DNA from: Treponema sp.
GTDB lineage: Bacteria; Spirochaetota; Spirochaetia; Treponematales; Treponemataceae
DNA length: 12,919 bases
Direction: 5' to 3'
Assembly (NCBI GenBank): GCA_017453705.1
Contig: JAFTEK010000077.1
Span: forward strand, 1-12,919
Below the pieces are notes generated by a model that made no database searches, was not told the origin of the DNA, and saw nothing but the letters and a program-made list of their open reading frames with translations. How positions within the stretch are numbered: position 1 is the stretch's first letter; the number at the start of each line of letters is the position of its first letter. This document shows positions 1 to 12,919 of this stretch, in pieces. Both the position numbers and the translations under genes were made by a program.

Positions 1-429
1 CCCAATGCAACGCCCTTGCATTTCTAAATGCAGCAGGGCTGTCAGGCTGTCACACACCAGCGTGTCACAGTCTATGTAGAGGAGCCTTCCCTGCATATCA
101 GGAAGCAAGTCTGACAGAAAAAGCCTTGCAAAAGTGGTCTTGCCATTGGGTACGCAGCCGTAGCTTTTGATCCTGTCCCCCACGGACTCCAAGAGGGGAG
201 CCGCAGGAATAAAGCTGACTTCCCGCTTTTCCCCATACGAGCCAACAAGATTCTCCAAGATTGCCCTGCTAGCTGCACTTATGCCGTCGTCCAAGACGTA
301 TATATGTATTTCCTTAAAGCCCCGGTTTTTGTCCAGCAGGGACATAATCGAGACACCCATCACGGGAACGTAATTTTCATCGGAGGCGTATGCTACTTGA
401 AGAATGTCTGAAGGGGAGGAAAAAGACAT
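1..429 (-). CDS. Family 8 glycosyltransferase, N-terminal fragment (3' end beyond window)
   Basis: Seen: an open frame read leftward from an ATG at 429 with no stop to base 1, giving 143 residues. It opens with a GT8-type nucleotide-sugar-binding strand (VAYASDENYVPVMGVSIMSL, about residues 12-31). It continues with the IYVLDDGIS strand and ends with RLLYIDCDTLV, in which D120-C121-D122 is the DxD motif that holds the metal and UDP-sugar. Known: GT8 enzymes (LgtC/GspA/WaaJ-like) are retaining transferases that move glucose or galactose from UDP-sugars to lipid-linked or surface glycans in the cytoplasm. The acceptor cannot be inferred. A typical GT8 domain is about 250-300 residues, so roughly half is missing. 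The start is supported by a promoter that places transcription at or next to this ATG. No Shine-Dalgarno lies in the usual place. The gene is divergent from the pentapeptide-repeat gene. Confidence 0.85.
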   Translation of the reverse strand, partial: MSFSSPSDILQVAYASDENYVPVMGVSIMSLLDKNRGFKEIHIYVLDDGISAASRAILENLVGSYGEKREVSFIPAAPLLESVGDRIKSYGCVPNGKTTFARLFLSDLLPDMQGRLLYIDCDTLVCDSLTALLHLEMQGRCIG

Positions 430-465
430 TGCCACATTCTATCCCATTTGACTAAATGTTTTCAA
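430..465 (-). promoter_or_regulatory. Sigma-70-like promoter of the GT8 gene, predicted leaderless
   Basis: Reading leftward, TTGAAA (465-460) is followed by 18 bases, then TAGAAT (441-436), then 6 bases (GTGGCA), then the ATG at 429. A start 6-8 bases after the -10 box falls on or beside the A of the start codon. There is no purine-rich ribosome site in the gap. This is inference from box matches (4/6 or better at both boxes) and spacing; no experimental start is known to me. Confidence 0.5.
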
Positions 466-482
466 TAGCTTACAGTATGGGC
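448..482 (+). promoter_or_regulatory. Sigma-70-like promoter of the pentapeptide-repeat gene, predicted leaderless
   Basis: TTGACT (448-453), a 17-base spacer, TACAGT (471-476), then 6 bases to an ATG at 483. The -35 matches consensus at 5/6 and the -10 at 4/6. The boxes interlock with those of the divergent GT8 promoter: each -35 lies inside the other promoter's spacer. An alternative pair, TTGCCA (429-434) and CTAAAT (452-457), also has a 17-base spacer but would start transcription near 464. Both options lie downstream of the ATG at 456, so that codon is unlikely to be the start. Confidence 0.45.
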
Positions 483-1166
483 ATGTACCTCTACAACCCC
501 TGCCTGTATCCAGGCTGCAAAAAGCTGGCAATATCATCCTTTGACGACAAGGGGGAACTTGCCGATGTCCCCGGCTACTGTCTGGAGCACCAGAAGAACC
601 TTCAGGAGATGCGCGATAAGCTCCATGAATACATAATGACCCATGACAAGATAGTAGGACTTAACGCGCCCGGCCTTACGGTAACAGACATGGACTTGAG
701 CGGGAAAAAATTCTACGGTTGCAATATGCAGCACTGCACTTTCACAAACGTGAACGCAAATTCCCTCCGCATACGTATGTGCATGTTCGATTTTTCCACC
801 ATGACCGACTGCAATTTGATTGGATGCAACATACAGTTCTCATCCCTGTCAGGTGCCAAGCTCGTCCACGCCCTTTTTACAGGCAGTGACTTTATCCACA
901 ACAACTTTAACGGAGTCACCGCCTACCAATGCAGTTTTGATGACAGCGACCTGTACAACACCCGGTTCATAAAGGCAGTTCTCATAAACACCTCGATGAT
1001 GAACTGCAACATGAAAAAAGCCGTGTTCTACGGGTCTGTAAGGGACGGTGTGTCCTTCAAGATGTCCAACACAGGTGAAGCCTTGTTTGACCGCGACAAG
1101 GGCGGGCTTATGGGAGATGCCGACGGTATGCTGGATGACGGGCTTGAGCGAAAGAGGGGTCTATGA
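483..1166 (+). CDS. Pentapeptide-repeat protein with N-terminal Cys/His cluster
   Basis: Seen: 227 residues from the ATG at 483. Residues 1-40 hold a candidate zinc site, C7-x4-C12 and C33-x2-H36 (PCLYPGC ... GYCLEH). A short, probably helical segment follows. From about residue 70 to 184 come roughly 23 consecutive five-residue units with the hydrophobic residue in the middle (for example CNLIG, SDFIH, SDLYN, CNMKK). Known: such repeats fold as a right-handed square beta-helix, and functions are diverse (DNA mimics, scaffolds). This one is rich in Cys, Asn and Met. The tail is acidic and glycine-rich. The frame also has an ATG at 456, giving 9 more residues, and one at 477. I prefer 483 because the promoter -10 ends 6 bases before it. 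The stop overlaps the next gene's start (ATGA), so the two are translationally coupled. The function is not recognised. Confidence 0.8.
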   Translation: MYLYNPCLYPGCKKLAISSFDDKGELADVPGYCLEHQKNLQEMRDKLHEYIMTHDKIVGLNAPGLTVTDMDLSGKKFYGCNMQHCTFTNVNANSLRIRMCMFDFSTMTDCNLIGCNIQFSSLSGAKLVHALFTGSDFIHNNFNGVTAYQCSFDDSDLYNTRFIKAVLINTSMMNCNMKKAVFYGSVRDGVSFKMSNTGEALFDRDKGGLMGDADGMLDDGLERKRGL

Positions 1167-1741
1167 AAATCTACTTCAACCTGTGTCTGGAAGGTTTTAC
1201 CAACTGCTATGTGGTCGTGAACGATGACCCCAAGGTTATGGAAGCCCTCATCATAGACCCCGGCAAAATAAGCAGCGAGATAATAAACCAGATTGAGCGG
1301 GGGCGTTATGAGCTGACCGCGGTTCTTATTACCCACAACCACACTAACCACGTAAAGGGGCTTTCCACCCTAAAGAAGATTTATTCCCCTTACGTCTATG
1401 CCGCAGACTATGATGTTGGAGGGGGAAAGTCCGTCGTCCTGAGGGGCAACGGCGAAATGGAAGTGGCGGGGCTCAACGTTAAGTATTACTCCGTTCCAGG
1501 GCACAGCTCGGACAGCATGGTGTACAGGATAGGCAATGTCCTTTTCACAGGCGACACGCTTACATCTGGAATCATCGGGGAGACGACAAGCAAGTATTCC
1601 AACAGGCTTTTGATGGACAATATAATAGAAAAGATTTACTCCCAGGCGGATGCCACCGTACTGATGCCGGGGCACGGGCCGCCTTCAACGATAGGGGGCG
1701 AAAAGCAGTTCAACCTGGATATTCCTTACCAGTTGAATTAG
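1163..1741 (+). CDS. Metallo-beta-lactamase-fold hydrolase with HxHxNH variant motif
   Basis: Seen: 192 residues, a small glyoxalase-II-like MBL fold. Motifs in order are T57-H-N-H-T-N-H63 (canonical THxHxDH), P112-G-H114, F128-T-G-D131 and P169-G-H171. All expected metal ligands are present except the Asp of the first motif, which is Asn62 (codon AAC). The N-terminal GFTNCYVVV segment and the IIDPG segment are typical of glyoxalase-II-like hydrolases. Known: that Asp normally binds the second metal, so this protein may be mononuclear, use a different metal, or be altered in activity. The start overlaps the previous stop by 4 bases and is preceded by AGAGGGG (1153-1159). The 3' end overlaps the convergent deacetylase gene by 32 bases. 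The substrate is unknown; thioester or phosphoester hydrolysis are both possible. Confidence 0.85.
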   Translation: MKIYFNLCLEGFTNCYVVVNDDPKVMEALIIDPGKISSEIINQIERGRYELTAVLITHNHTNHVKGLSTLKKIYSPYVYAADYDVGGGKSVVLRGNGEMEVAGLNVKYYSVPGHSSDSMVYRIGNVLFTGDTLTSGIIGETTSKYSNRLLMDNIIEKIYSQADATVLMPGHGPPSTIGGEKQFNLDIPYQLN

Positions 1742-2645
1742 CGAACTCTTCTTTGAGCACCGCCATTGACTTACATTCTTCCGCGCGGTCAGGGGAACAG
1801 CTGGCTTCCACAAAGCCCGGCTTCTGGTATTCGTCGCGAGAGGCTATTTCTTCCTGCGGCACCTGTCCGGGGTGGAACAAAAGCACAAGGGGTCGCCCCT
1901 TGCGTTCTGCCAGAGCCATAAGCTTGGGCAGGACAGGCCTCAGGTTCCCTTCCGTCATGGCACCGGTAAAGAAAACACCAGAAAGATATGTAGGCCTTAT
2001 GCCCAGTTTTTTAAGATGCCGCTTGACCCTGTGCGAAAGAAAGTTAAGGACTAGGCACTTTATGATATTCGCAAGCTTTATATGGGCGTAGATTTTGGGC
2101 GTGCTCAGATACGGGAAAAGGGGGTCTTCCGAGTTCCTGATGCAAGAAATGCGGCAGCCGTCCTTTTGCAAACTAGCCACCGCGTCCATCAGCGCATCAA
2201 AGAATACCGGGATATGATGGGGATGCTGGTGGCTGTCCAAGCTGACGGCCGTTTTATCAATGATTCCCGCGTCCAGGCAGCGGCGAACCTGGGCCTCGAT
2301 TTCCACGGCCAGCTGCCTGCGAATCCGCCCCCTCTTCCAGGGCAGGAAAGAATCAATGAATAAGGAAGCCCATGAGACACAAAAAAGCCCCCTGCCGTCC
2401 ACCAGATTTTTTACCTGTTCGGGTAAACTTACGGGGCGGCCTTCCATGACGTTTAGATGAACGGAGACTTTTGGCTTTATGGGAAAAGACGGAATGGCTT
2501 CCTTGTACAGGTCAACGCACTCACCAAAGCATGATATATTGCATATAACGCTCAGTGAGTCCACATTGCCCTGCTGACAGAGGCTTATAATGTCTTTTGA
2601 TGATGACAGGGCAAGGGCAAAGTCATCAGCATGGAAACTGACCAT
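1710..2645 (-). CDS. ChbG/YdjC-family carbohydrate deacetylase
   Basis: Seen: 311 residues with the family's landmarks. These are HADDFA (residues 5-10, containing the catalytic and metal Asp pair), VSVHLNVMEGRPV with H63, DSHQHPHH (137-144), and LLFHPG near the C-terminus. Known: the YdjC/ChbG fold is a distorted TIM barrel related to polysaccharide deacetylases. It removes N-acetyl groups from chito-oligosaccharides and similar sugars using a metal held by Asp and two His. There is no signal peptide, so it should be cytoplasmic. The start has an AAGGGGA ribosome site about 10 bases upstream and lies 20 bases after the decarboxylase stop, so the two genes form one unit. The substrate is unknown; an amino-sugar made inside the cell is plausible. 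The pairing with a decarboxylase does not explain itself. Confidence 0.85.
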   Translation of the reverse strand: MVSFHADDFALALSSSKDIISLCQQGNVDSLSVICNISCFGECVDLYKEAIPSFPIKPKVSVHLNVMEGRPVSLPEQVKNLVDGRGLFCVSWASLFIDSFLPWKRGRIRRQLAVEIEAQVRRCLDAGIIDKTAVSLDSHQHPHHIPVFFDALMDAVASLQKDGCRISCIRNSEDPLFPYLSTPKIYAHIKLANIIKCLVLNFLSHRVKRHLKKLGIRPTYLSGVFFTGAMTEGNLRPVLPKLMALAERKGRPLVLLFHPGQVPQEEIASRDEYQKPGFVEASCSPDRAEECKSMAVLKEEFANSTGKEYPG

Positions 2646-2665
2646 TCCAAGAGTCCCCTTGCCTC

Positions 2666-3838
2666 TTAGTCCATGTAGTATGTCTTAATGGGCGGAAAGC
2701 CATTGAAGGCGACGCTGGCGTAAGTAGAAGTATATGCCCCTGTGGAAAGCCAGTAGAGCCTGTCACCCGCCTTTAGGTTCACGGGAAGCCGGTACTTAAA
2801 GTCCTCGTACATTATATCCGCGCTGTCACAGGTGGGGCCGGCGAGGATTACCTCCCCCTCCTTGGCATCAGGCGCATCCTTGGAGCTGATGACCGGATAC
2901 TTGATGGACTCACCCATAGTTTCCACAAGGCCGTTGAATTTGCCAGCGTCCACGTAGACCCATCGCTGGAGGGCGGTGTTGTTCTTGCGGCTGATGAGGA
3001 TGACCTCGCTGGTCAGGATGCCGCAGTCTCCCACGAGAGACCTTCCCGGCTCAAGGATTATCTGGGGCATGTCGTCCCCGAAGTCCTCGCGAAGGTAGCG
3101 GGTTATCTCGGAGGCGTAGGTCCCAAGCTCGTTGGCAGGGCTTACATAGTGGGCAGGGAAGCCGCCCCCCATGTTTATCATGGAAAGGCGGATACCCTCC
3201 TCCTCTTCCAATGAAGAGAAAAGGTACAGGCTCTTTGCAATGGCATCGTTCCAAATTCCTATATCGCGCTGCTGGCTGCCCACGTGGAAGCTCACGCCGT
3301 AGGGGGTCAGCCCCATGTCCCGCGCCTGAACGATGAGGTCATAGGCCATGTCGGGGTGGCAGCCGAACTTGCGGCTGAGCGGCCAGTCCGCGGTGCTGGT
3401 GCTTTCTATGAGCATACGGACGTAGACCCGGCTCTTGGGGGCAAATTCAGCAATGTTCTTTAAATCTTCCTTGCTGTCCGTGGCGAACATGCGGACGCCC
3501 TTCTCGTAGAAATAGGCTATGTCGCTCGCCTTCTTTATCGTGTTGCCGTAGGACAGGCGGTCGGGGGAAACACCCAGCGAAAGAACCTCGTCCAGCTCGT
3601 AGCGGGAAGCAATGTCAAAGTTGGAGCCCATGTCCGCAAGCATTTTGATGATTTTCTCGCCCGGATTAGCCTTCACCGCATAATAAATCTGAGCATAAGG
3701 GAAGGAATCCTTTAGCTTTATGTAGTTGTGCTTGACCTGGTGCAAGTTGATGACGATGTTGGGGGTCTGCAAATCCTTTGAAAATTTCTGGAAAGCCTCC
3801 CAGTCAAAATCAGATACAAAGTCAGCGCGATTGTACAA
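2666..3838 (-). CDS. PLP-dependent ornithine/lysine decarboxylase (alanine-racemase fold, UUG start)
   Basis: Seen: 390 residues, full length for the eukaryotic-type ODC fold. The PLP-binding lysine is K56 in YAVKANP. YGNTIKK is at 97-103, FHVGSQQRD at 184-192, the glycine loop GGGFP at 224-228 and the phosphate loop EPGRS at 263-267. The catalytic cysteine is C337 in GPTCDSAD, and GAYT plus FNGFPP lie near the end. Known: this family includes the short Pseudomonas SpeC-like ODC and bifunctional L/ODC enzymes, which make putrescine or cadaverine as obligate dimers in the cytosol. Which amino acid is preferred cannot be read from sequence. The start is TTG at 3838: an in-frame TAA lies five codons upstream, there is no in-frame ATG before residue 66, and the Shine-Dalgarno AAGGCGG sits 7 bases upstream. 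It is the first gene of the unit with the deacetylase. Confidence 0.92.
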   Translation of the reverse strand: MYNRADFVSDFDWEAFQKFSKDLQTPNIVINLHQVKHNYIKLKDSFPYAQIYYAVKANPGEKIIKMLADMGSNFDIASRYELDEVLSLGVSPDRLSYGNTIKKASDIAYFYEKGVRMFATDSKEDLKNIAEFAPKSRVYVRMLIESTSTADWPLSRKFGCHPDMAYDLIVQARDMGLTPYGVSFHVGSQQRDIGIWNDAIAKSLYLFSSLEEEEGIRLSMINMGGGFPAHYVSPANELGTYASEITRYLREDFGDDMPQIILEPGRSLVGDCGILTSEVILISRKNNTALQRWVYVDAGKFNGLVETMGESIKYPVISSKDAPDAKEGEVILAGPTCDSADIMYEDFKYRLPVNLKAGDRLYWLSTGAYTSTYASVAFNGFPPIKTYYMD

Positions 3839-3845
3839 AGCATTA

Positions 3846-3852
3846 CCGCCTT
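3846..3852 (-). promoter_or_regulatory. Shine-Dalgarno that decides the UUG start of the decarboxylase
   Basis: AAGGCGG in the leftward direction, 7 bases before the TTG at 3838. An out-of-frame ATG (3843-3841) lies between the two and opens a frame of about 41 codons inside the gene, so two starts compete for one ribosome site. Confidence 0.55.
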
Positions 3853-3853
3853 A

Positions 3854-3867
3854 TCATAAAATTATGA
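3854..3867 (-). promoter_or_regulatory. Extended -10 and short palindrome upstream of the decarboxylase
   Basis: Leftward, TGTCATAAT is an extended -10 (TG, one base, CATAAT at 3866-3861) with only a weak -35 candidate, TTCAAT (3889-3884), 17 bases away. Transcription would begin near 3854, giving a leader of about 16 bases. The -10 is embedded in a perfect 6+2+6 palindrome, TCATAA-aa-TTATGA, which could be an operator or simply a by-product of an A/T-rich promoter. Confidence 0.35.
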
Positions 3868-3922
3868 CAGCTGGAACCACTGCATTGAAAGGGATAATAA
3901 TATAAAACGCCCTTGCTTGCAA

Positions 3923-3954
3923 GAAGTTTAAGCCAAAAACTTCCTTGAAGTTTA
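3923..3954. repeat. GAAGTTTA direct and inverted repeats overlapping the -35 of the polyphosphate unit
   Basis: GAAGTTTA occurs at 3923-3930 and again at 3947-3954, exactly 24 bases apart, with the inverse AAACTTC between them at 3937-3943. The second copy overlaps the TTGAAG -35 box (3945-3950). The two direct copies and the one inverse give two alternative perfect 7-bp dyads. This layout suits a regulator-binding site, but that is inference. Confidence 0.4.
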
Positions 3955-3980
3955 TCCGCCGCTAGACTATAATGGAAGCA
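3945..3980 (+). promoter_or_regulatory. Near-consensus sigma-70 promoter of the polyphosphate unit, predicted leaderless
   Basis: TTGAAG (3945-3950), 17 bases, a perfect TATAAT (3968-3973), then 7 bases to an ATG at 3981. The more upstream ATG at 3972 overlaps the -10 box itself and so cannot be in the transcript from this promoter. Transcription is predicted to begin at or beside 3981. Confidence 0.6.
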
Positions 3981-4409
3981 ATGGAATATCTCGTCCTTTT
4001 AGGCCTGGCTCTCTTCATCTTCTTTATGCTTCGCTTCATCGTAAGCTCCGACAGGGAGGACAAAAAAAACGCCCTCAAAAAGGCAAATGACGAAGCCCAG
4101 AAAAAGGCGGAATCCAGGGGTCTTCTCGTAAGCTGCCCCCTCTGCTCCAGCCCGCTTGCCAAAGGAGAGGACATCATCAGCAAAGTATACAGACCCATGA
4201 ACGTGCCAGACCAGCTGTGCACGATAGACGGATGCCCCCACTGCTTTCCCAGGCCGGAACCCGGACTAAAGCGCAAGTGCCCGGTCTGCGGAAAAGAGGT
4301 TCCTCTCAAGGAAGGGCATCTCAACGCCCGCCTGTTCAATTACGAGGACGGAAAAAAGCACGTGGTCGTCACAGGCTGCACTGAATGTAGCAAGGGGAAC
4401 AAAAAGTAA
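3981..4409 (+). CDS. Single-pass membrane protein with multiple CxxC zinc-ribbon motifs
   Basis: Seen: 142 residues. A hydrophobic helix (about residues 3-21, EYLVLLGLALFIFFMLRFIV) is followed by a charged Lys/Glu/Asp-rich stretch likely to form a short helix. A Cys-rich domain follows, with C52-P-L-C55, C80, C85-P-H-C88, C100-P-V-C103 and C133-T-E-C136. The paired CxxC motifs fit two zinc ribbons. The positive residues after the helix suggest a cytoplasmic C-terminal domain. I do not recognise a named family. The gene heads the unit with ppx and ppk: its TAA is 3 bases before the ppx ATG. A role in placing or sensing polyphosphate enzymes at the membrane is inference only. The start at 3981 is chosen over 3972 because the latter overlaps the -10 box. 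Confidence 0.75.
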   Translation: MEYLVLLGLALFIFFMLRFIVSSDREDKKNALKKANDEAQKKAESRGLLVSCPLCSSPLAKGEDIISKVYRPMNVPDQLCTIDGCPHCFPRPEPGLKRKCPVCGKEVPLKEGHLNARLFNYEDGKKHVVVTGCTECSKGNKK

Positions 4410-4412
4410 GAT

Positions 4413-5942
4413 ATGAGTAGCATAAAGGCTGTCATAGAAATTGGCTCCACGGGCATCCGTATGCTCGTCGCCGAGATGACCGATGACAAAAAGCGCAACA
4501 TACTGGACAGATCGGAATTCCCTGCCAACATAGGCCGGGATGTCTTCACCTCACGCTACATCAGCCGTGACACCCTGCTCAACGCCCAGCGCATACTGAA
4601 CCGCTTTGGGGAGCAGCTTTCCGCATGGGGGCTTACCAGAGAAGAAACCCTTGTCCTGGGTACAACAGCAGTCCGTGAAGCCCTGAACCGTGACCCCTTT
4701 GTGGACAGGATAAACATAAAGACCGGCTTTACCGTCCGTGTCATAGACGGAATAGAAGAGAACCGCCTTATGTACATTGCCGTGACCGAGTGCCTGAAAG
4801 AAGAAAGCTTTTCGGTCAGGCAGAGCAATTCTATCATCCTTGACGTTTCCGGCGGGGCGACCGAGATGATGCTCATGGAAAAGGGAAGCATCGTTGGTGC
4901 GCACTCGCTCAGGCTGGGTACGGTTATAATCGGCCAGCAGATTCACTCTATGACAGGCAACACTGACGACGCCATACGCTTTGTCACCGAGTTCATCAGC
5001 AACACCCGCGCGACGCTCAACGCCGAGATGAACTTGGACAAAGTTCAGCAGTTCATCGCACTGGGCAAGGACATGCAGATTGCCGCGATTTTCGCAGGTT
5101 ATTCCGTGTCCACATTCCTCTGGGAAATAGACAGGGACAGCTTTGACAAATTCGTTGACGAGGTGGTGCACTATTCCGAGGAAGAATGTGTCGCCAGATT
5201 CAAGATGAGCTATAACGAGGCCAAGACATTCCGCATCTCATTGCTCACCTACAGGCAGTTCATCTCACTGACAAACGTAAAGACAATAGTGGTTCCTGAG
5301 ACATCCATACGGGAAGGCGCGCTTATAGCAGGCACCCAGGATGGCGACGGGGGACTGCGCGATGAGTTCTCTGAGCAGATTGTCGCCAGCGCAAGAACCC
5401 TGCTCAGGAAATACAAGGGGGACGAGAAGCACACCGAGTACGTCCGCAAGGTAAGCTGCAGGATATTCGACGCGATGGAAGGAGAACTGGGGCTGGATGC
5501 CCACGCCAGGATGCTGCTGGAAGTCTCAGCCCTGCTGCACGACATCGGTATGTTCATCAGGCCGGAAGACCACAACCTGCACTCCTATTACATCATCAGG
5601 CACAGTGAGATATTCGGGCTAGGGGCAGACGAGATGAACCTTGTCGCCCTTATCTCCCTTTACCACAAGGGAAAGGTTTCCCCGCAAAACGAGGCGGAAG
5701 TAAAGATGCTCCCGCGTGCCAGCCGCCTTACGATACTGAAGCTCTGCTCCATACTTAGGGTGGCGGACTCCTTTGACCGCAGCCACAGGCAGAGGATCAA
5801 GGACTTCAGCATATCATTCTCCAAGGACAGCATCACATTCAGGATAAAAGGACACGATCACATGGGGCTGGAGAGGCTGGCACTGCAGGAAAAGTCTGAC
5901 CTGTTTGAGGACGTATTCGGCTACAAGGTCGTCTTGGTTTAA
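4413..5942 (+). CDS. ppx: Ppx/GppA-family exopolyphosphatase with C-terminal HD domain
   Basis: Seen: 509 residues, close to the length of E. coli Ppx. The N-terminal ASKHA domain begins AVIEIGSTGIRMLVAEM. The E115-E116-N-R-L motif matches the catalytic EEARL region. The second phosphate loop is D144-V-S-G-G-A-T-E151. The C-terminal half has an HD-type helical domain with LLHDIGMF (H376-D377) and a downstream HNLHSYYIIRHSE segment. Known: the family removes terminal phosphate from polyphosphate, or the 5' phosphate from pppGpp. Both phosphate loops deviate from the usual DxGSNS and DIGGGSTE: E9, T13, G14, S146 and A149 replace D, N, S, G and S. The catalytic acids D144 and E151 remain. A purine-rich AAGGGGA at 4392-4398 lies 14 bases upstream, rather far for a Shine-Dalgarno. 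The gene is 3 bases after the zinc-ribbon gene and 14 bases before ppk. GppA-like activity is the main alternative. Confidence 0.88.
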   Translation: MSSIKAVIEIGSTGIRMLVAEMTDDKKRNILDRSEFPANIGRDVFTSRYISRDTLLNAQRILNRFGEQLSAWGLTREETLVLGTTAVREALNRDPFVDRINIKTGFTVRVIDGIEENRLMYIAVTECLKEESFSVRQSNSIILDVSGGATEMMLMEKGSIVGAHSLRLGTVIIGQQIHSMTGNTDDAIRFVTEFISNTRATLNAEMNLDKVQQFIALGKDMQIAAIFAGYSVSTFLWEIDRDSFDKFVDEVVHYSEEECVARFKMSYNEAKTFRISLLTYRQFISLTNVKTIVVPETSIREGALIAGTQDGDGGLRDEFSEQIVASARTLLRKYKGDEKHTEYVRKVSCRIFDAMEGELGLDAHARMLLEVSALLHDIGMFIRPEDHNLHSYYIIRHSEIFGLGADEMNLVALISLYHKGKVSPQNEAEVKMLPRASRLTILKLCSILRVADSFDRSHRQRIKDFSISFSKDSITFRIKGHDHMGLERLALQEKSDLFEDVFGYKVVLV

Positions 5943-5948
5943 GGGAGG
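5941..5948 (+). promoter_or_regulatory. Shine-Dalgarno that sets the ppk start at 5957
   Basis: AAGGGAGG lies 8 bases before the ATG at 5957 and overlaps the ppx stop codon by two bases. An in-frame GTG at 5948 would add three residues, but it lies inside this site, so it is rejected as the start. Confidence 0.8.
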
Positions 5949-5956
5949 TGCTAGAT

Positions 5957-8095
5957 ATGGCAGAAAACAAAGAGAAAGGACGATATTTCAACAGGGAGCT
6001 GAGCTGGCTGGAATTCAATGCCCGTGTCCTAAGCGAAGCCTTAAGGAAGGACAACCCGCTCCTTGAGAGGCTTAACTTTCTGGGAATTGTCTCCAGCAAC
6101 TTTGGAGAGTTCTTCCAAGTGCGTGTCGCCTCCCTCAAGAGGGAAGCAAGCGTCAACCCCAGGCAAAAGGACTCCAGCGGCCTTACCGCCAAGGAATGTC
6201 TGGAAAAGATTTCCAAGAGAAGCCACGAGCTTGTGGAAAAACAATACAAGTGTCTTATGGGAGACATCCTTCCGGCACTGGCAAAAGAAGGGCTTGTCTA
6301 CGTCCGCCCCAAGGATTTTTCCACAGCCCAGAAAAACTATGCGGAAGGCTTTTTCCACCACGACCTTTTTCCCCTCCTCACCCCGCTCAGGACTGACTTG
6401 GAGGAGTTCCCCCATATAGGCAGCATGAGGCTACATGTCGCCTTCCTTTTGGACAAAATGCCGGGAGTCCACCGCAAGGAGACAGGATTGCTCCCCAAGT
6501 CGGACTCCGACCTGATAGCGCTCGTTCCTATACCTTCCAGCCTGCCGAGGGTGCTTTACCTGCCCAGCGAGGACGGTACAAAGCGCTTCTCGCTGGTGGA
6601 TGATATCGTCACCTTATTCGGAAGAGAACTTTTTCCCGGATACAACGTCAAAGAATCCATGGTATTTGAGCTGGCACGTGACGCTGACTTTGCAGTGGAC
6701 GAGGAAGCGGGCGACCAGTTCATACAGGCAATGAAAGAAGTCCTTGTCAAAAGGCAGTCCTCATTCCCTGTCTGCCTGTGGGCTGACAGCGGCAGCAAAA
6801 AGCTCCTGTCCGCCATAAAAGAAAAGCTTGCCCTGGAGGACAAGGATATCTACAGGGTGGACGGAATCATTGAGCCGGGCTCCCTCATGGAGATTTCTGA
6901 AGGAGACGAGGCCGCGAGGCTTTCCTATCCTAACTGGCCGCACTTTTACCCCGCGGAACTGCCGGAAGACGGCAGCTACTGGAACACCCTGCGCCAGAAG
7001 GATGTACTGCTCAACGTTCCTTACGAAAGCTATGATCCCGTCGTAAAGCTGATACAGGATGCTTCCGTAGACTCCGAAGTCCTGGCAATAAAGATGACCC
7101 TGTACCGCACCGGCAGCAACTCCCCCATAGTACAGGCCCTCAAGCGGGCATCCGTAAACGGAAAGTCAGTCACGGTATTCGTGGAGCTAAAGGCCCGCTT
7201 TGACGAGCAGCGCAACATATCATGGGCACAGGAGCTAGAAGACGCAGGTGCCACGGTCATATACGGCATGGTCAACCTAAAGGTTCACGCCAAAATCTGC
7301 CTTATAATCCGCAAGGAGAGTGACGGAATCCGCCGCTACGTGCACCTGAGCACAGGCAACTACAACCCAAAGACCGCCCGCCTGTATCAGGACTTCTCCA
7401 TATTCACGAGTAATCCCGACATAGCCCTGGACGCAACCCTCTTCTTTAACGTGGTATCAGGCTACAGCATAGTTCAGTCCATGCACTCCCTATACATGGC
7501 ACCGGTCAGCATAAAAAGCCGCCTTATAGAAATGATAGAGCGTGAGATAAGCTGGAGCAGCCCTGACAACCCTGGCCTCATAATGGCAAAGATGAACAGC
7601 CTGTGCCACGATGAGATAATCGAGGAGCTTTACAAGGCTAGCAGGGCAGGTGTCCGTGTCATGCTGAACATACGTGGTATCTGTACGCTTATCCCCGGTG
7701 TCAAGGGTATGAGCGAGAACATAGAGGTATCAAGCGTAGTGGGGCGATACCTGGAACATTCCCGCGTGTTCTACTTCAAGAACGGCGGCAGCGAGGAACT
7801 GTATCTAAGCAGCGCGGACTGGATGGTACGCAACCTGGACAAGAGGATAGAACTGATGTTCCCCGTGCTGGACAAAGAAGCCTTCAAGACCGTAAAAGAG
7901 GAACTGGAGCTGTATTTCCGTGACAACACGCACCGGCACTGCCTGTGCAAGGACGGCGGCTGGAAAGAGGTAAAGACCCCTCAAGGGGAAACGCCTGTAA
8001 GCGTCCAGGAGGAGATGCAGAGGAAATACGAAAGGCTGGACGAAGCCCGCAAATCCCAGCCCAAGCTGGAATTTGTCGTAAGGCGAAAGAACTAG
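5957..8095 (+). CDS. ppk: Polyphosphate kinase (PPK1)
   Basis: Seen: 712 residues, normal PPK1 length. The N-terminal domain opens with YFNRELSWLEFNARVLSEA, the family signature. The two phospholipase-D-like catalytic domains carry VNLKVHAK with H444, HLSTGNYNPKTARLYQDF, and GRYLEHSRV with H601, followed by SSADWM.RNLDKRIE. The spacing H444 to H601 is 157 residues, the same as between H435 and H592 of the E. coli enzyme as I recall it. Known: the first His is autophosphorylated by ATP, and the tetramer polymerises long-chain polyphosphate reversibly, often at the membrane. It is the last gene of the unit with ppx, so synthesis and breakdown are co-transcribed, as in some other bacteria. The downstream neighbour is convergent. 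Confidence 0.97.
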   Translation: MAENKEKGRYFNRELSWLEFNARVLSEALRKDNPLLERLNFLGIVSSNFGEFFQVRVASLKREASVNPRQKDSSGLTAKECLEKISKRSHELVEKQYKCLMGDILPALAKEGLVYVRPKDFSTAQKNYAEGFFHHDLFPLLTPLRTDLEEFPHIGSMRLHVAFLLDKMPGVHRKETGLLPKSDSDLIALVPIPSSLPRVLYLPSEDGTKRFSLVDDIVTLFGRELFPGYNVKESMVFELARDADFAVDEEAGDQFIQAMKEVLVKRQSSFPVCLWADSGSKKLLSAIKEKLALEDKDIYRVDGIIEPGSLMEISEGDEAARLSYPNWPHFYPAELPEDGSYWNTLRQKDVLLNVPYESYDPVVKLIQDASVDSEVLAIKMTLYRTGSNSPIVQALKRASVNGKSVTVFVELKARFDEQRNISWAQELEDAGATVIYGMVNLKVHAKICLIIRKESDGIRRYVHLSTGNYNPKTARLYQDFSIFTSNPDIALDATLFFNVVSGYSIVQSMHSLYMAPVSIKSRLIEMIEREISWSSPDNPGLIMAKMNSLCHDEIIEELYKASRAGVRVMLNIRGICTLIPGVKGMSENIEVSSVVGRYLEHSRVFYFKNGGSEELYLSSADWMVRNLDKRIELMFPVLDKEAFKTVKEELELYFRDNTHRHCLCKDGGWKEVKTPQGETPVSVQEEMQRKYERLDEARKSQPKLEFVVRRKN

Positions 8096-8102
8096 GAAGC
8101 CT

Positions 8103-8132
8103 GTTGCAAAAGCACGTCCAGACTTTTGCAAC
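8103..8132. repeat. Perfect 10-bp inverted repeat between convergent genes
   Basis: GTTGCAAAAG (8103-8112) and CTTTTGCAAC (8123-8132) are exact inverses separated by 10 bases. The repeat begins 8 bases after the ppk stop, where a terminator is expected. Neither side is followed by a T-run, so it is not a classic intrinsic terminator. It could be a factor-dependent terminator, a 3'-end stabiliser for both convergent messages, or a dispersed genomic repeat. Confidence 0.7.
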
Positions 8133-8164
8133 CGCATCTAGGTACGCATAACTAACCCGCGTCA

Positions 8165-8208
8165 GGAATTATGGCAACCCGGAATTATGGCAAGGCGGAA
8201 TTATGACA
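8165..8208. repeat. Three-copy 16-base tandem repeat at the end of the second ABC gene
   Basis: GGAATTATGGCAA occurs at 8165-8177 and 8181-8193, and a diverged third copy (GGAATTATGACA) at 8197-8208, with a 16-base period. The third copy contains the TAA stop of the ABC gene. The last part plus flank, AATTATGACAGCT (8199-8211), is repeated exactly at 3860-3872 in the promoter of the decarboxylase. Confidence 0.75.
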
Positions 8209-10171
8209 GCTCAAACGCGCCTGTATACAGGTCGTAGTAGCGGCCTTTCTTTGCCATAAGGCTGTCATGGTTGCCCCTCTCGATAATCGTTCCTTTTTCC
8301 AGAACAATTATCTCATTCGCATTGCGGACAGTGGAAAGCCTGTGGGCAATGACAAATACGGTGCGCCCTTCCATCAGCGAGTCCATTCCCTTCTCTATAA
8401 GGGCTTCCGTGCGGGTATCTATGGAGCTGGTAGCCTCGTCCAGAATCAACACAGGCGGGTCGGCCACGGCCGCACGTGCAATCGCAAGCAGCTGCCTCTG
8501 CCCCTGGCTCAAGTTGCCCCCGTCACCGGAGATTACAGTGTCATAGCCTTTCTCCAAATGGCGGATAAAATAGTCCGCGTTGGCAAGCTTTGCCGCCGCC
8601 ACAATCTGTGACTCGCTCGCCTCCAGGTTGCCGTAGCGGATATTGTCGCGTATGCTGCCTGTGAACAAATGCGTGTCCTGAAGAACCATGCCGAGAGAAT
8701 GCCGCAGGTCATCCTTCTTGATGTCCTTGAGGGGTATACCGTCGTATGTTATCAGCCCCTTGCCGTCTTCTATATCATAAAAGCGGGTGAGCAGGTTTGT
8801 TATAGTCGTCTTTCCAGAGCCTGTGGAGCCGACAAGAGCGATTTTCTCGCCCGGCCTTGCATGTAAGTCAATATGATGCAGGACTTCTTTCTCCGGCACA
8901 TAGCTGAAAGACACATCCTTGAAGTCCACATCTCCCTGCAACCTGCGAAGAACAAATTCCTCTCTGTCAGCATGGGTAACATCCATGTCCGTATCAGCGG
9001 CCATTTCCTTGTGAATTCTCCAAGCCCACTCACCGGTCTGCGCGTATGACTGAACCAAATGAACTTTACCGTCGCCCGAAGCAGAAGGCAGGGTTTCACT
9101 CGCGTTGACCAAAGTGACCGTTCCCTCATCCAGCTCATTCTCCTCGTCTATGCAGGCAAAAATCCTCTCCGCTCCGGCAAGGGCGTTCAGTATGCCGTTG
9201 AACTGCTGGCTCATCATGGAGATAGGACGGGTAAACGCCCTTGTATACTGCAAGAACGCGGCGATAGAACCTAAATCCAGCATACCCCTTATTATCATGG
9301 CAGCCCCGGCAATAGAGACAAGGGCATACTGTATGTGCCCCACGTTGTTAGTGAAAGGCCCCAGTATGTTGGCATAGGTGTTGGCTCTGGTTCCCGCCTC
9401 GCACAGCTCGTCATTTTTACGGCAGAACTCCTTTATCACCGCTTCCTCATGGTTAAACACCTTCACCACACGCTGCCCCTCAATAAGCTCCTCTATATAG
9501 CCGTTGACCTTACCTATGGCGGCCTGTTGGTCACGGAAAGCCGCTGCACTGCGCTTTCCCACGCAAGCCACAATGAAAAGCATGAGGCTTATCGTGACGA
9601 TAACCAGGAGCGTAAGAATGGGGCTGGTGATGAGCATCATTACAAAAACAGCCGTGACGCTTATTATGCTCGAAAAAAGCTGAGGAAGGCTCTGGCTCAT
9701 CATGTCACGCAGGGTATCCGTGTCGTTGGTGAACAGTGACATAAGCTCCCCGTGCGTATGGGCATCGTAGTACCTCATGGGCAGCCTCTCCAGCTCATCA
9801 AAGAGGTCACGCCTTATCCTATATAATGTCTGTGTGGAGACATGGAGCATGAGCCTGGAATTCACCCATGTGGCCAATGCCCCGCATACGAATATGACAG
9901 CCATCAGCAATATCAGGCGCAAAAAGGGATAAAAGTCCGCGAATACTATCTGCTCACCAGCAGCAGCCCTTTGATACAGGGGCACGATGTAATTGTTTAT
10001 AGCGGGTTTTAGCATGGAGTCGCAGGCGACCGTCGCCCCGGAACTGACAATCACCGCCAGCATCACGAAAAAAAGCTGGAGCTTGTATATCCCAAGGTAT
10101 CTAAAAATCCTCTTTATTGTATTGGCGACATTCTTGGGCTTCGCCATTCCGCGCATATTCATTCTTGGCAT
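8201..10171 (-). CDS. ABC exporter half-transporter, catalytically competent subunit (heterodimer partner 2)
   Basis: Seen: 656 residues, a type IV exporter half: a six-helix membrane domain (to about 340) and an ATPase domain (from about 412). Walker A is GSTGSGKTT (448-456, K454), Walker B is VLILDEATSSID with catalytic E579, and the switch histidine is H610 in VIAHRLSTV. The signature is LSQGQ (554-558) instead of LSGGQ. Known: in heterodimeric exporters such as TM287/288, LmrCD or BmrCD, this pattern marks the subunit whose Walker motifs form the working ATP site. The stretch between the two domains (about 349-412) is some 40 residues longer than usual and includes GEWAWRI. The start at 10171 follows GGAGGAA with good spacing and lies 15 bases after the partner gene's stop. 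The cargo is unknown; drugs, lipids and peptides are all possible. Confidence 0.93.
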   Translation of the reverse strand: MPRMNMRGMAKPKNVANTIKRIFRYLGIYKLQLFFVMLAVIVSSGATVACDSMLKPAINNYIVPLYQRAAAGEQIVFADFYPFLRLILLMAVIFVCGALATWVNSRLMLHVSTQTLYRIRRDLFDELERLPMRYYDAHTHGELMSLFTNDTDTLRDMMSQSLPQLFSSIISVTAVFVMMLITSPILTLLVIVTISLMLFIVACVGKRSAAAFRDQQAAIGKVNGYIEELIEGQRVVKVFNHEEAVIKEFCRKNDELCEAGTRANTYANILGPFTNNVGHIQYALVSIAGAAMIIRGMLDLGSIAAFLQYTRAFTRPISMMSQQFNGILNALAGAERIFACIDEENELDEGTVTLVNASETLPSASGDGKVHLVQSYAQTGEWAWRIHKEMAADTDMDVTHADREEFVLRRLQGDVDFKDVSFSYVPEKEVLHHIDLHARPGEKIALVGSTGSGKTTITNLLTRFYDIEDGKGLITYDGIPLKDIKKDDLRHSLGMVLQDTHLFTGSIRDNIRYGNLEASESQIVAAAKLANADYFIRHLEKGYDTVISGDGGNLSQGQRQLLAIARAAVADPPVLILDEATSSIDTRTEALIEKGMDSLMEGRTVFVIAHRLSTVRNANEIIVLEKGTIIERGNHDSLMAKKGRYYDLYTGAFELS

Positions 10172-10186
10172 AGTAATTCCTCCGGC

Positions 10187-11929
10187 CTAGTTCTGTGACT
10201 GCTGGGAGTCATAGACCTCCCGGTATATCTCATTGTTCTTCAGAAGCTCCTCGTGTCTTCCAAAGCCAACTATCCTGCCTGCATCCATGACAAAGATTAT
10301 GTCAGCATCCTGAACCGATGTGATTCTCTGGGCTATTATTATCTTGGTCGTATTCGGAAGGGTAGTCCTGAGCGCCTTCCTTATCCTGGCATCCGTCGCC
10401 GTGTCAACGGCACTCGTGCTGTCATCCAGAATAAGAATCTTGGGCTTTTTGAGGAGTGCACGTGCAATGCAAAGCCTCTGCTTCTGGCCGCCGGACAAGT
10501 TGACGCCCCCCTGCCCCAAATCGCTGTCATAGCCCTTTGGCAGGCTGCTCACAAACTCGTCAGCGTCGGACGCAATGCAAGCCGCACGGATTTCCTCGTC
10601 GCTCGCCCGGGGATTGCCCCATTTTAGGTTGTCACGTATCGTGCCGGAAAAAAGGACATTCTTCTGCAAGACCATCGACACATCATCGCGAAGAGCCTTG
10701 AGCCTGTAGTTCCTGACATCTATTCCGCCGACTGAGACGGAGCCGGACATAACATCATACAGGCGGGGAATAAGAGAAACCAGCGTAGTCTTGGAAGAGC
10801 CTGTTCCACCGATTATGCCGACGACCGCCCCTGCGTCAATATGCAGGCTGACATCATTGAGCACGGCCTTGTCAGCATCCTTGGAATATGAAAAGCTCAC
10901 ATCCTTGAAATCCACAGAGCCGTCAGGAACTGACTCCGCAAGGCCGGCATCAGGACTGTCACAATCCGTAATCTCAGGTCTCTCGTCCAACAGCTCCACA
11001 ATCCGGTTTATGCTCGCCCTTGACAGCACAAGCATGACGAATATCATGGACAATATCATCAAGGACATCAGTATCTGCGTAATATAGGTAATAAAGCTTA
11101 TAAGCTGCCCGGTCATCATGTCGCCGAACACTATCATGCGGCCGCCAAAGAAGAGGGCGGCGATTATACAGGAGTACACGAGCAGCTGCATCACAGGCCC
11201 GTTCAATATGACAAGCTTTTCAGCCCTGACCTGAAGCCTTCTGAGAGTGTCAGCAGAATTGTTGAATTTCTCACATTCATAGGGGGTACGCACAAAACTC
11301 TTGACCACACGGATTGCTATCAGGTTTTCCTGAACCTTGGCATTAAGGTCATCATACTGGGCGAGCATCTTTCGGAAGCGGGGATAGCTCAGTGCGATTA
11401 TAATGCCCAGCACTACGGCCAATATGGGTATGGCGACAAAGAAGACAGTGGACAGGCGCAGGTTTATCATGCAGGCCATGAAGGTGCCGGACACCAGCAT
11501 TATAGGCGCACGGAAACAAATACGCAAAAGCATCTGATATGTGTTCTGGATATTCGTGACATCAGTGGTAAGGCGGGTCACTAGCGATGATGTGGAAAAG
11601 TGATCCACGTTGCCGAACGAAAAGGCCTGCAACCTAGTGAACAAATTCCGCCTGAGGTTCCTGGAAAAGCCCAGGGAAGCCACAGCCCCGAACCTGGCGC
11701 CAAGACAGCCAAAGGCAAGGGAGACCAGGGACAGGCAAACCATCACAAGTCCTGTCCTAAGGACGTAGGCCAAATCCCCCCCGGAGATTCCAAGGTCAAT
11801 GATTCTGGACATAAGGAGGGGAATAATCACCTCCATAGCAACTTCACCCACCATAGTAACGGGCGTAAGAATGGAATAAAGCCTGTACTTAAGCTCAAGG
11901 CCTTCCAGCAGTTTTTTTAGTGAAGACAT
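10187..11929 (-). CDS. ABC exporter half-transporter, degenerate-site subunit (heterodimer partner 1)
   Basis: Seen: 580 residues from the ATG at 11929, with a six-helix membrane domain followed by an ATPase domain. Walker A is GGTGSSKTT (374-382), with Ser379 in place of the usual Gly. Walker B is ILILDDSTSAVD, with D503 in place of the catalytic Glu. The switch residue is Q534 (IIIAQRITS) in place of His. The signature LSGGQ (478-482) is intact. Known: these changes define the non-hydrolysing site of heterodimeric exporters, while the intact LSGGQ completes the partner's working site. The two genes fit exactly. The same frame is open to an ATG at 12040, but the extra 37 residues (MLSTPTFFFGIG...) resemble no transporter N-terminus and cover the promoter. 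The start at 11929 gives MSSLKKLLEGLELKY, followed by the first membrane helix. Confidence 0.93.
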   Translation of the reverse strand: MSSLKKLLEGLELKYRLYSILTPVTMVGEVAMEVIIPLLMSRIIDLGISGGDLAYVLRTGLVMVCLSLVSLAFGCLGARFGAVASLGFSRNLRRNLFTRLQAFSFGNVDHFSTSSLVTRLTTDVTNIQNTYQMLLRICFRAPIMLVSGTFMACMINLRLSTVFFVAIPILAVVLGIIIALSYPRFRKMLAQYDDLNAKVQENLIAIRVVKSFVRTPYECEKFNNSADTLRRLQVRAEKLVILNGPVMQLLVYSCIIAALFFGGRMIVFGDMMTGQLISFITYITQILMSLMILSMIFVMLVLSRASINRIVELLDERPEITDCDSPDAGLAESVPDGSVDFKDVSFSYSKDADKAVLNDVSLHIDAGAVVGIIGGTGSSKTTLVSLIPRLYDVMSGSVSVGGIDVRNYRLKALRDDVSMVLQKNVLFSGTIRDNLKWGNPRASDEEIRAACIASDADEFVSSLPKGYDSDLGQGGVNLSGGQKQRLCIARALLKKPKILILDDSTSAVDTATDARIRKALRTTLPNTTKIIIAQRITSVQDADIIFVMDAGRIVGFGRHEELLKNNEIYREVYDSQQSQN

Positions 11930-11990
11930 ATTTTCATTATAGCAGATTTCACATACTAAAGACAATTTTTCTTGATTTTTTATTTTTTTT
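11930..11990 (-). promoter_or_regulatory. Sigma-70-like promoter with A-rich UP element for the ABC exporter genes, predicted leaderless
   Basis: Leftward: TTGTCT (11965-11960), 18 bases, a perfect TATAAT (11941-11936), then 6 bases (GAAAAT) to the ATG at 11929. Directly upstream of the -35, bases 11990-11966 are almost pure A with a few other bases on this strand, as in an UP element bound by the RNA polymerase alpha subunit. No Shine-Dalgarno lies between the -10 and the ATG. Confidence 0.55.
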
Positions 11991-11991
11991 C

Positions 11992-12018
11992 TAAAGGTCA
12001 AATTCCCTATACCGAAAA
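11992..12018 (+). promoter_or_regulatory. Sigma-28 (FliA)-type flagellar promoter of flaB
   Basis: TAAAGGTC (11992-11999), exactly 11 bases, then ACCGAAAA (12011-12018). This compares with the flagellar consensus TAAAGTTT-N11-GCCGATAA, with 6 of 8 matches in each half by my count. The predicted start is near 12025, giving a leader of about 72 bases. Known: treponemal flaB genes are read from sigma-28 promoters. Confidence 0.6.
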
Positions 12019-12024
12019 AGAAAG

Positions 12025-12096
12025 TAGGGGTGGACAGCAAGTGATTTTCTTTTGCTTGCTATTAAACCGAATCTTTTATAAAGAGGAGATAAATCT
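12025..12096 (+). promoter_or_regulatory. flaB leader with stem-loop and GGA motifs
   Basis: The leader holds AGCAAG (12036-12041) and CTTGCT (12055-12060), which pair into a 6-bp stem extended by a possible U-G pair. A GGA (12032-12034) sits just before the stem. A second GGA (12085-12087) lies in the strong Shine-Dalgarno AGAGGAGA (12082-12089). Known: in spirochaetes such as Borrelia, CsrA represses flagellin translation by binding GGA sites in the leader. A similar control here is inference. Confidence 0.4.
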
Positions 12097-12919
12097 ATGG
12101 TTATCAATCACAACATGAGCGCAATGTTCGCTCAGAGGGCTGAGGGCATAACTGAGGTCAGGCAGCAGAAGAACATCGAAAAGCTTTCTTCTGGTGAGAA
12201 GATCAATCGCGCAGGCGATGATGCTTCCGGACTTGCAGTTTCTGAGAAAATGCGTGCACAGATCCGCGGTCTGAACCAGGCTTCACGGAATGCTGCAAAC
12301 GGCATTTCCTTCATCCAGACGACGGAAGGTTACCTGCAGGAGACCGAGGACATCATCCAGCGCCTCCGCGAGCTTGCCGTTCAGTCAAGCAACGGAATCT
12401 ACACCGATGAGGATCGCACCTACATCCAGGTCGAGGTTTCTTCTCTCATCGCTGAGGTTGATCGCATCGCTTCTTGCGCCCAGTTCAACGGCATGAACAT
12501 GCTGACCGGACGCTTTGCACGTGCTACCGGTGAGAACACGCCCACCGCTTCTATGTGGCTGCACATCGGTGCCAACATGGATCAGAGGACCCAGGTTTAC
12601 ATCGGAACAATGACCGCTGCCGCCCTCGGAATCCGCAACGTCGGAACTGAGGAAATCATGACCCTTGAGACCCCCGACAACGCCAACCGCGCCATCGGAA
12701 CTCTCGATGAGGCCATCAAGAAGATCAACAAGCAGCGTGCTGACCTCGGTGCCTACCAGAACCGCCTTGAGAAGACTGTTGAGGGCTTGGATGTTGCCGC
12801 TGAGAACACTCAGAGCAGCGAGTCCAGGATCCGCGACACCGACATGGCCGCCCAGATGGTCGAGTTCACCAAGGACAACGTTCTTTCCCAGGCCGGAACC
12901 GCCATGCTCGCGCAGGCGA
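12097..12919 (+). CDS. flaB: Periplasmic flagellin FlaB (core filament protein), C-terminus cut by window edge
   Basis: Seen: 274 codons, open to the right edge. The N-terminus [14 protein letters not shown], the D0/D1 block [25 protein letters not shown], the [13 protein letters not shown] segment, [13 protein letters not shown] and the C-terminal block [21 protein letters not shown] are close to the treponemal FlaB sequences I know. Known: FlaB forms the core of the periplasmic flagellar filament, inside the FlaA sheath, and lacks the variable D2/D3 domains of external flagellins. About 12 residues appear to be missing relative to the usual 286. The start follows AGAGGAGA with an 8-base gap to its core. 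A cysteine is present at residue 127. The gene is divergent from the ABC exporter unit, with a 167-base control region between them. Confidence 0.97.

Follow-up and report, generated by a model that had tools for sequence, protein, structure and literature searches.

We analyzed a stretch of 12,919 nucleotides from a Treponema sp. genome (assembly GCA_017453705.1, contig JAFTEK010000077.1; the whole stretch is hereafter called the window) and found that four genes leading transcription units share one layout, in which the -10 box of a sigma-70-type promoter ends 5-8 nt before the start codon. These four lead genes, and about a fifth of the lead genes sampled across the genome, are very likely transcribed into leaderless mRNAs. 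Because the polymerase usually begins about 7 nt past the -10 box, the mRNA would be expected to start at the AUG or within about two bases of it, lacking a Shine-Dalgarno (SD) leader. Ribosomes would then start on the 5'-terminal AUG. SD sites are more frequent at operon-internal genes. The original prediction for this DNA had proposed that leaderless mRNAs are a regular way of starting units in this spirochaete, and the sequences support this, since a strong -10 box occupies this place in 28 of 134 lead genes and in 0 of 85 internal genes (P 4e-7). First genes thus appear to use leaderless starts regularly here, as one mode among others. The actual 5' ends and the mode of translation start are what we infer from this layout.

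Promoter layouts in the window, the genome, and the genus

The four genes encode a GT8 family glycosyltransferase (1..429, reverse strand; Pfam PF01501, E 1.4e-16; it runs off the window), a pentapeptide-repeat protein (483..1166, forward strand; identified by Pfam), a zinc-ribbon-like protein (3981..4409, forward strand; only a sub-threshold Pfam match), and ABC subunit 1 (10187..11929, reverse strand). Their -35, -10, and ATG elements all lie where they had been predicted. The GT8 promoter (436..465, reverse strand) has TTGAAA at 465-460, an 18-nt spacer, TAGAAT at 441-436, and 6 nt to the ATG at 429. The promoter of the pentapeptide gene (448..476, forward strand) has TTGACT at 448-453, 17 nt, TACAGT at 471-476, and 6 nt to the ATG at 483, and that of the zinc-ribbon gene (3945..3973, forward strand) has TTGAAG at 3945-3950, 17 nt, TATAAT at 3968-3973, and 7 nt to the ATG at 3981. 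The ABC promoter (11936..11965, reverse strand) consists of TTGTCT at 11965-11960, 18 nt, and TATAAT at 11941-11936, here an extended -10 (TGC-TATAAT), with 6 nt to the ATG at 11929. This makes four of the six lead genes of the window. At the control offsets, a full promoter before the ATG was found in 0-5 of 134 lead genes; at the mean control rate (2.2/134) the chance of four in six is about 1e-6, with thresholds that were chosen post hoc.

The window is part of a genome in 393 contigs (G000; 2.28 Mb, 72% complete), of which 60 contigs (L039-L098, 434 kb) were sampled for the comparison of lead and internal genes. The script that called the genes relied on coding potential and start-codon type, and upstream signals were given no say in the starts. 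A box was called strong if it matched the -10 element at no fewer than five of six positions and ended 5-8 nt before an ATG lying within 45 nt of the coding start. The background is the same box counted at five control offsets per gene class. The predicted enrichment of -10 boxes before first-gene ATGs is present: the count of 28 for lead genes stands against 6, 7, 6, 0, and 2 at the control offsets, and the count of zero for internal genes against 1, 0, 1, 3, and 0. Strong boxes were also found in 7 of 38 intermediate genes (controls 1, 3, 1, 1, and 0) and in 4 of 43 genes at contig edges (controls 3, 1, 1, 0, and 2). In total, 39 of the 300 called genes are boxed, with about 8 expected from the controls; net of background, boxes mark about 18% of the lead genes and, across the whole sample, about 10% of genes. 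In 21 of the 28 lead genes with a box, a -35 matching at four or more of six positions lies at a spacing of 16-18 (5, 0, and 0 at other spacings). When TAnnnT was counted together with a -35, it was found in 24 of 134 lead genes (controls 2, 5, 3, 1, and 0) and in 1 of 85 internal genes.

Because 12 of the 60 contigs had been chosen from a list of pattern matches, we repeated the counts on 40 contigs taken by number. The strong box was then found in 13 of 62 lead genes (controls 2, 4, 3, 0, and 0), 6 of 26 intermediate genes, and 0 of 43 internal genes, and TAnnnT with a -35 in 10 of 62 lead genes (controls 1, 3, 3, 1, and 0) and 1 of 43 internal genes. With the window excluded, the figures are 27 of 132 lead and 0 of 80 internal genes.

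The SD core (AGGA, GGAG, GAGG, or AGGT, searched by script) accompanies 2 of the 28 boxed lead genes, leaving 26 without it, vs 51 of the 85 internal genes. In the window it is absent from the pentapeptide, ABC, and zinc-ribbon starts, and by eye also from the GT8 start. The claim that the four ATGs have no SD holds for the core, with the qualification that the zinc-ribbon gap (GGAAGCA) contains a weak SD-like GGAA. An exact pattern for the 16S rRNA tail matched in 3 of 21 genomes, G000 not among them; this is uninformative because rRNA is often absent from metagenome-assembled genomes (MAGs).

The signal can also be seen when gene calls are set aside. Counting TATAAT with an ATG 5, 6, 7, and 8 nt behind it gives 6, 14, 8, and 17 cases in the 60 contigs, vs an average of 4.6 per spacing over the range 12-60 nt; for the 40 contigs the counts are 2, 8, 1, and 7 vs 2.2. 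The gaps of 6 and 8 nt outnumber that of 7 in the larger sample, perhaps by chance. The whole genome has 173 such pairs at 5-8 nt and 77 at 20-23 nt, a ratio of 2.25. A control with the reversed pattern (219 vs 33) was dropped since it exaggerates the effect, which positional controls put at about 2.2-2.5 fold. TAnnnT alone gives nearly no peak when gene positions are left out. Among 149 genomes of the phylum, this one has the highest z (6.1) and ranks third by ratio. The ratio is 1.31 in the family (13 genomes, this one included) and 1.15 in 11 further genomes of the class. High ratios were also seen in three other genomes of the phylum: G096 (f6) with 3.1 (52/17), G011 (f17) with 2.1 (92/44), and G063 (f2) with 4.2 (21/5).

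For the conservation of the layout, we searched 79 genomes of the genus and, for each of three genes (zinc-ribbon, ABC, and pentapeptide), took the 30 best-matching loci, own locus included. Three zinc-ribbon loci were left out, two because the matches begin at residues 36 and 30 (L137 and L147) and one at a contig edge (L148), as were two ABC loci with no ATG within 30 nt (L158 and L174), where a TTG start is preceded by GGAGG. TAnnnT at a distance of 5-8 nt from the ATG was counted in 28 of 30 pentapeptide loci (0-3 in six control windows), 26 of 28 ABC loci (controls 1-7), and 14 of 27 zinc-ribbon loci (controls 1-5); the zinc-ribbon count is again 14 of 27 with a box of at least 5/6 (controls 0-3). 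Three close zinc-ribbon relatives (L032, L033, and L034) keep TTG(A/C)(A/T)G-17-TATAAT-6/7-ATG, with a spacer that varies in sequence. The box is absent from L161, L131, and L170, where the gene lies 3, 9, and 23 nt behind an upstream open reading frame (ORF) of at least 900 nt, and present in L153 and L184 despite upstream ORFs of 285 and 249 nt, which are probably spurious. GT8 matches were found in 44 of the 79 genomes, and the closest of those listed are a paralogue in the same genome (63% identity) and the match in G201 (59%); the others listed have 23-33% identity, plus four short stretches at 40-47%. Because these are distant, the conservation of the GT8 promoter rests on the paralogue, which has TTGAAA-17-TAGAAT-6-ATG, and on G201, with TAGACT 6 nt before the ATG.

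Alternative explanations, start codons, and leadered genes

Several observations weigh against a leaderless start as a regular mode. The gene calls were made by a script from coding potential, in a genome that is 72% complete. TAnnnT alone shows a smaller excess in lead genes (38 of 134, controls 19, 17, 20, 6, and 7). If at least 5/6 of the box is required, the orthologue counts fall to 7 of 30 for the pentapeptide gene (controls 0) and 13 of 28 for the ABC gene (controls 0-3). Among the zinc-ribbon orthologues, 13 of 27 lack TAnnnT at 5-8 nt, of which six carry GATAAT with 5-6 nt left to the ATG; an SD core is present in another three, and the last four show neither. Another member of the genus, G086, gives a weak signal, with 12 of 123 lead genes (controls 8, 10, 7, 7, and 14) and 0 of 69 internal genes (lead vs internal P 0.005). 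Most of the phylum shows no sign of the mode, the ratio of TATAAT-to-ATG spacings being 1.01 in the remaining 125 genomes, three of which have z above 3. The predicted start mode is pronounced in this genome and patchy across the genus. Finally, a leadered transcript could arise in addition from a promoter lying further upstream.

This last point leads to the alternative that survives best, although it is unlikely: the leaderless transcripts would be real but minor, and a second, leadered promoter would make most of the protein. Against it stand the lack of an SD core before these ATGs and the intergenic region of the pentapeptide and GT8 genes, which is just 53 nt long and is filled by the two promoters. 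Less probable again is that the boxes before the start codons arise by chance in AT-rich DNA, the true promoters lying further upstream with SD-less leaders. A mechanical scan of the window gives 16 promoter-like sites, all four layouts among them, where shuffled sequences give 10.1 +/- 2.9; as this is just a modest surplus, such sites are weak on their own, and what counts is their position before an ATG. This explanation is also favored by the small excess of TAnnnT alone (in internal genes 4 of 85, controls 8, 3, 5, 5, and 4), and by the SD core in 41 of the 106 box-less lead genes, which implies that many lead genes are leadered. It would not explain why the strong box peaks at 5-8 nt with a correctly spaced -35, is missing from internal genes, and is conserved among orthologues. 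Very improbable is translation from in-frame starts further upstream, at 435, 456, 3972, and 12040, which would place the boxes inside coding sequences: the frames are open, but the start codons of the orthologues contradict it for 456, 3972, and 12040.

The starts at 483, 11929, and 3981 are supported by orthologues. When the best match of each genome is aligned to the pentapeptide protein, the alignment opens with residue 1 of the 483 start in 76 of 78 cases (own genome counted), and the ABC ATG is at the exactly aligned position in 26 of 30 orthologous loci. The gap between box and ATG varies by one nucleotide among relatives, which speaks against translation from upstream ATGs; close relatives of the zinc-ribbon gene have 6 or 7 nt, and where it is 6 nt, a start codon within the box would not be in frame with the gene. 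For GT8, where a GTG at 435 is also possible, the start at 429 is supported by the paralogue and by G201. The original prediction had corrected three starts relative to a longest-ORF rule. The correction stands and the number becomes four (435 to 429, 456 to 483, 3972 to 3981, and 12040 to 11929).

The four lead units predicted in the window are all of the leaderless type, and two further lead genes, which the prediction did not mention, are apparently leadered. The gene of an Orn/Arg/DAP-type decarboxylase (2666..3838, reverse strand) starts with a TTG at 3838 and has an SD-like AAGGCGG; the -10 of its promoter-like sequence (TTGCAA-17-TATTAT, 3922-3894) ends 55 nt upstream of the start. The flagellin gene (12097..12918, forward strand; ATG at 12097) has a GAGGAG site and a long leader. 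Upstream of it, at 11992-12018, lies TAAA-N15-ACCGAAAA, which we take to resemble the sigma-28 promoter consensus. The flagellin leader (11992-12096), with its strong SD, contrasts with the leaderless-type units. The operon-internal genes were said to have purine-rich sites upstream, and inspection by eye agrees, the site of ppx being weak. These are the genes of an MBL-fold hydrolase (1163..1741), ppx (4413-5942), and ppk (5957-8095), all on the forward strand, and of ABC subunit 2 (8201..10171, reverse strand), which has a GGAGG site. Eight relatives of ppk were found, five of them in Treponema or Spirochaetaceae MAGs at 84-86% identity (one from goat rumen) and three distant.

The interlocked GT8 and pentapeptide promoters

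The two divergent promoters of the window interlock: the -35 of GT8 (460-465) is inside the spacer of the pentapeptide promoter, whose own -35 (448-453) is inside the GT8 spacer, and the two ATGs are 53 nt apart. Of the 28 boxed pentapeptide loci, 25 show TTGA at a spacing of 16-18, and the 23 with a 17-nt spacer give TTTGACTAAATGttTTCAATAgCGTAaAGT. A degenerate motif of this promoter occurs once each in 21 of the 79 genomes of the genus, always directly before the pentapeptide gene, and has no exact match in the other 58. The divergent partner is a small zinc-ribbon gene (MCWKCG...) at 50-53 nt in 14 of the 30 loci, murI at 52-53 nt in four, and GT8 in the genome analyzed here, so that 19 of 30 loci have the interlocked layout. 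In the remaining 11 the distance differs or no such divergent gene was seen.

The small zinc-ribbon protein has no Pfam match. All 18 loci in which its gene was identified show a -10 match of 5/6 or better at 5-8 nt, and three of them have an AGGT core as well. A search without positive control did not find it in G000, G201, and G216, whose assemblies are incomplete. The small zinc-ribbon gene is followed by murI in all five loci read for gene order. As a lead gene, murI is preceded by a TAnnnT box in 5 of 7 loci, vs 1 of 12 when it is internal behind the small zinc-ribbon gene (P 0.01), and by a box of at least 5/6 in 3 of 7 vs 0 of 12 (P 0.04); these counts omit L207, where murI is 486 nt away. 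Comparison of the loci, rather than a tree, suggests that one divergent gene took the place of another next to a promoter that was retained.

A tentative reading is that the locus is a module recurring in the genus, in which two leaderless promoters within about 53 bp would admit one polymerase at a time, so that the two units would be expressed alternately. Loss or replacement of the divergent first gene (zinc-ribbon by murI or GT8) would join the next ATG to the old -10, and an internal gene would turn leaderless. Bidirectional promoters of E. coli likewise use one short stretch of DNA for two divergent genes; they share a -10, and the distance between their starts is in most cases 10, 18, or 23 bp (PMC12825309). 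The GT8 and pentapeptide promoters differ in that it is their -35 elements that interlock, about 54 bp separate their predicted starts, and neither mRNA would have a leader. Their -10 boxes are 29 bp apart (442-470) and not shared. The five E. coli bidirectional promoters tested fire too rarely for polymerases to compete (PMC12825309), which speaks against alternate expression at this locus.

We also considered interlocking as a general design and rejected it. Facing TATAAT boxes of which one is followed by an ATG after 5-8 nt are no more frequent at 22-31 nt than at 42-51 nt apart (254 vs 245 in the first 79 of 196 genomes). The interlocked pair is a single locus that recurs and does not amount to a general rule. 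In contig C63 of G000 (L045, 7319/7373), a further divergent pair, again with a gap of 53 nt and with TATAAT boxes facing outward, lies between the gene of a 184-aa protein and one of the Na/H exchanger family. In contigs C30 (1032-1060) and C153 (3616-3642) of G000, TATAAT boxes of opposite orientation overlap, and each has an ATG at a distance of 4-9 nt, like the shared -10 promoters of E. coli.

Relation to leaderless starts in other bacteria

Leaderless gene starts are already known from other bacteria, including a spirochaete. TA-led leaderless genes, in which TANNNT precedes the start by about 12 bp, have been computed for many bacteria (Zheng et al. 2011, PMC3160421). Their Pribnow-like box is at the same distance as in this Treponema, and spirochaetes figure there with 6 of 18 genomes and a mean of 3.9% of genes (1.8-6.9). 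The value of about 10% of called genes in our sample was obtained by another method and is not directly comparable. In Deinococcus-Thermus the -10 motif abuts the ORF as it does here, in about 30% of ORFs (PMC12340547). In Leptospira interrogans, likewise a spirochaete, dRNA-seq found about 440 mRNAs with a 5' untranslated region below 10 nt, described as a common feature (PMC5243855). Leaderless mRNAs were thus measured there and are predicted here; that study found no common promoter motif except sigma-54, whereas a TTGACA/TATAAT-like promoter is visible in Treponema. A paper on the Borrelia ribosome mentions in passing that leaderless transcripts occur at high frequency (PMC10618245). In the titles and abstract openings that our searches of the open-licence literature returned, we found no report of leaderless starts in Treponema.

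At the sequence level, these results extend the leaderless starts measured in Leptospira to a Treponema-like genome, and the start annotation of many lead genes would need correction. The murI, ABC, and zinc-ribbon genes provide cases with the box where the gene leads and without it behind another gene, which makes the rule that it marks lead genes testable.

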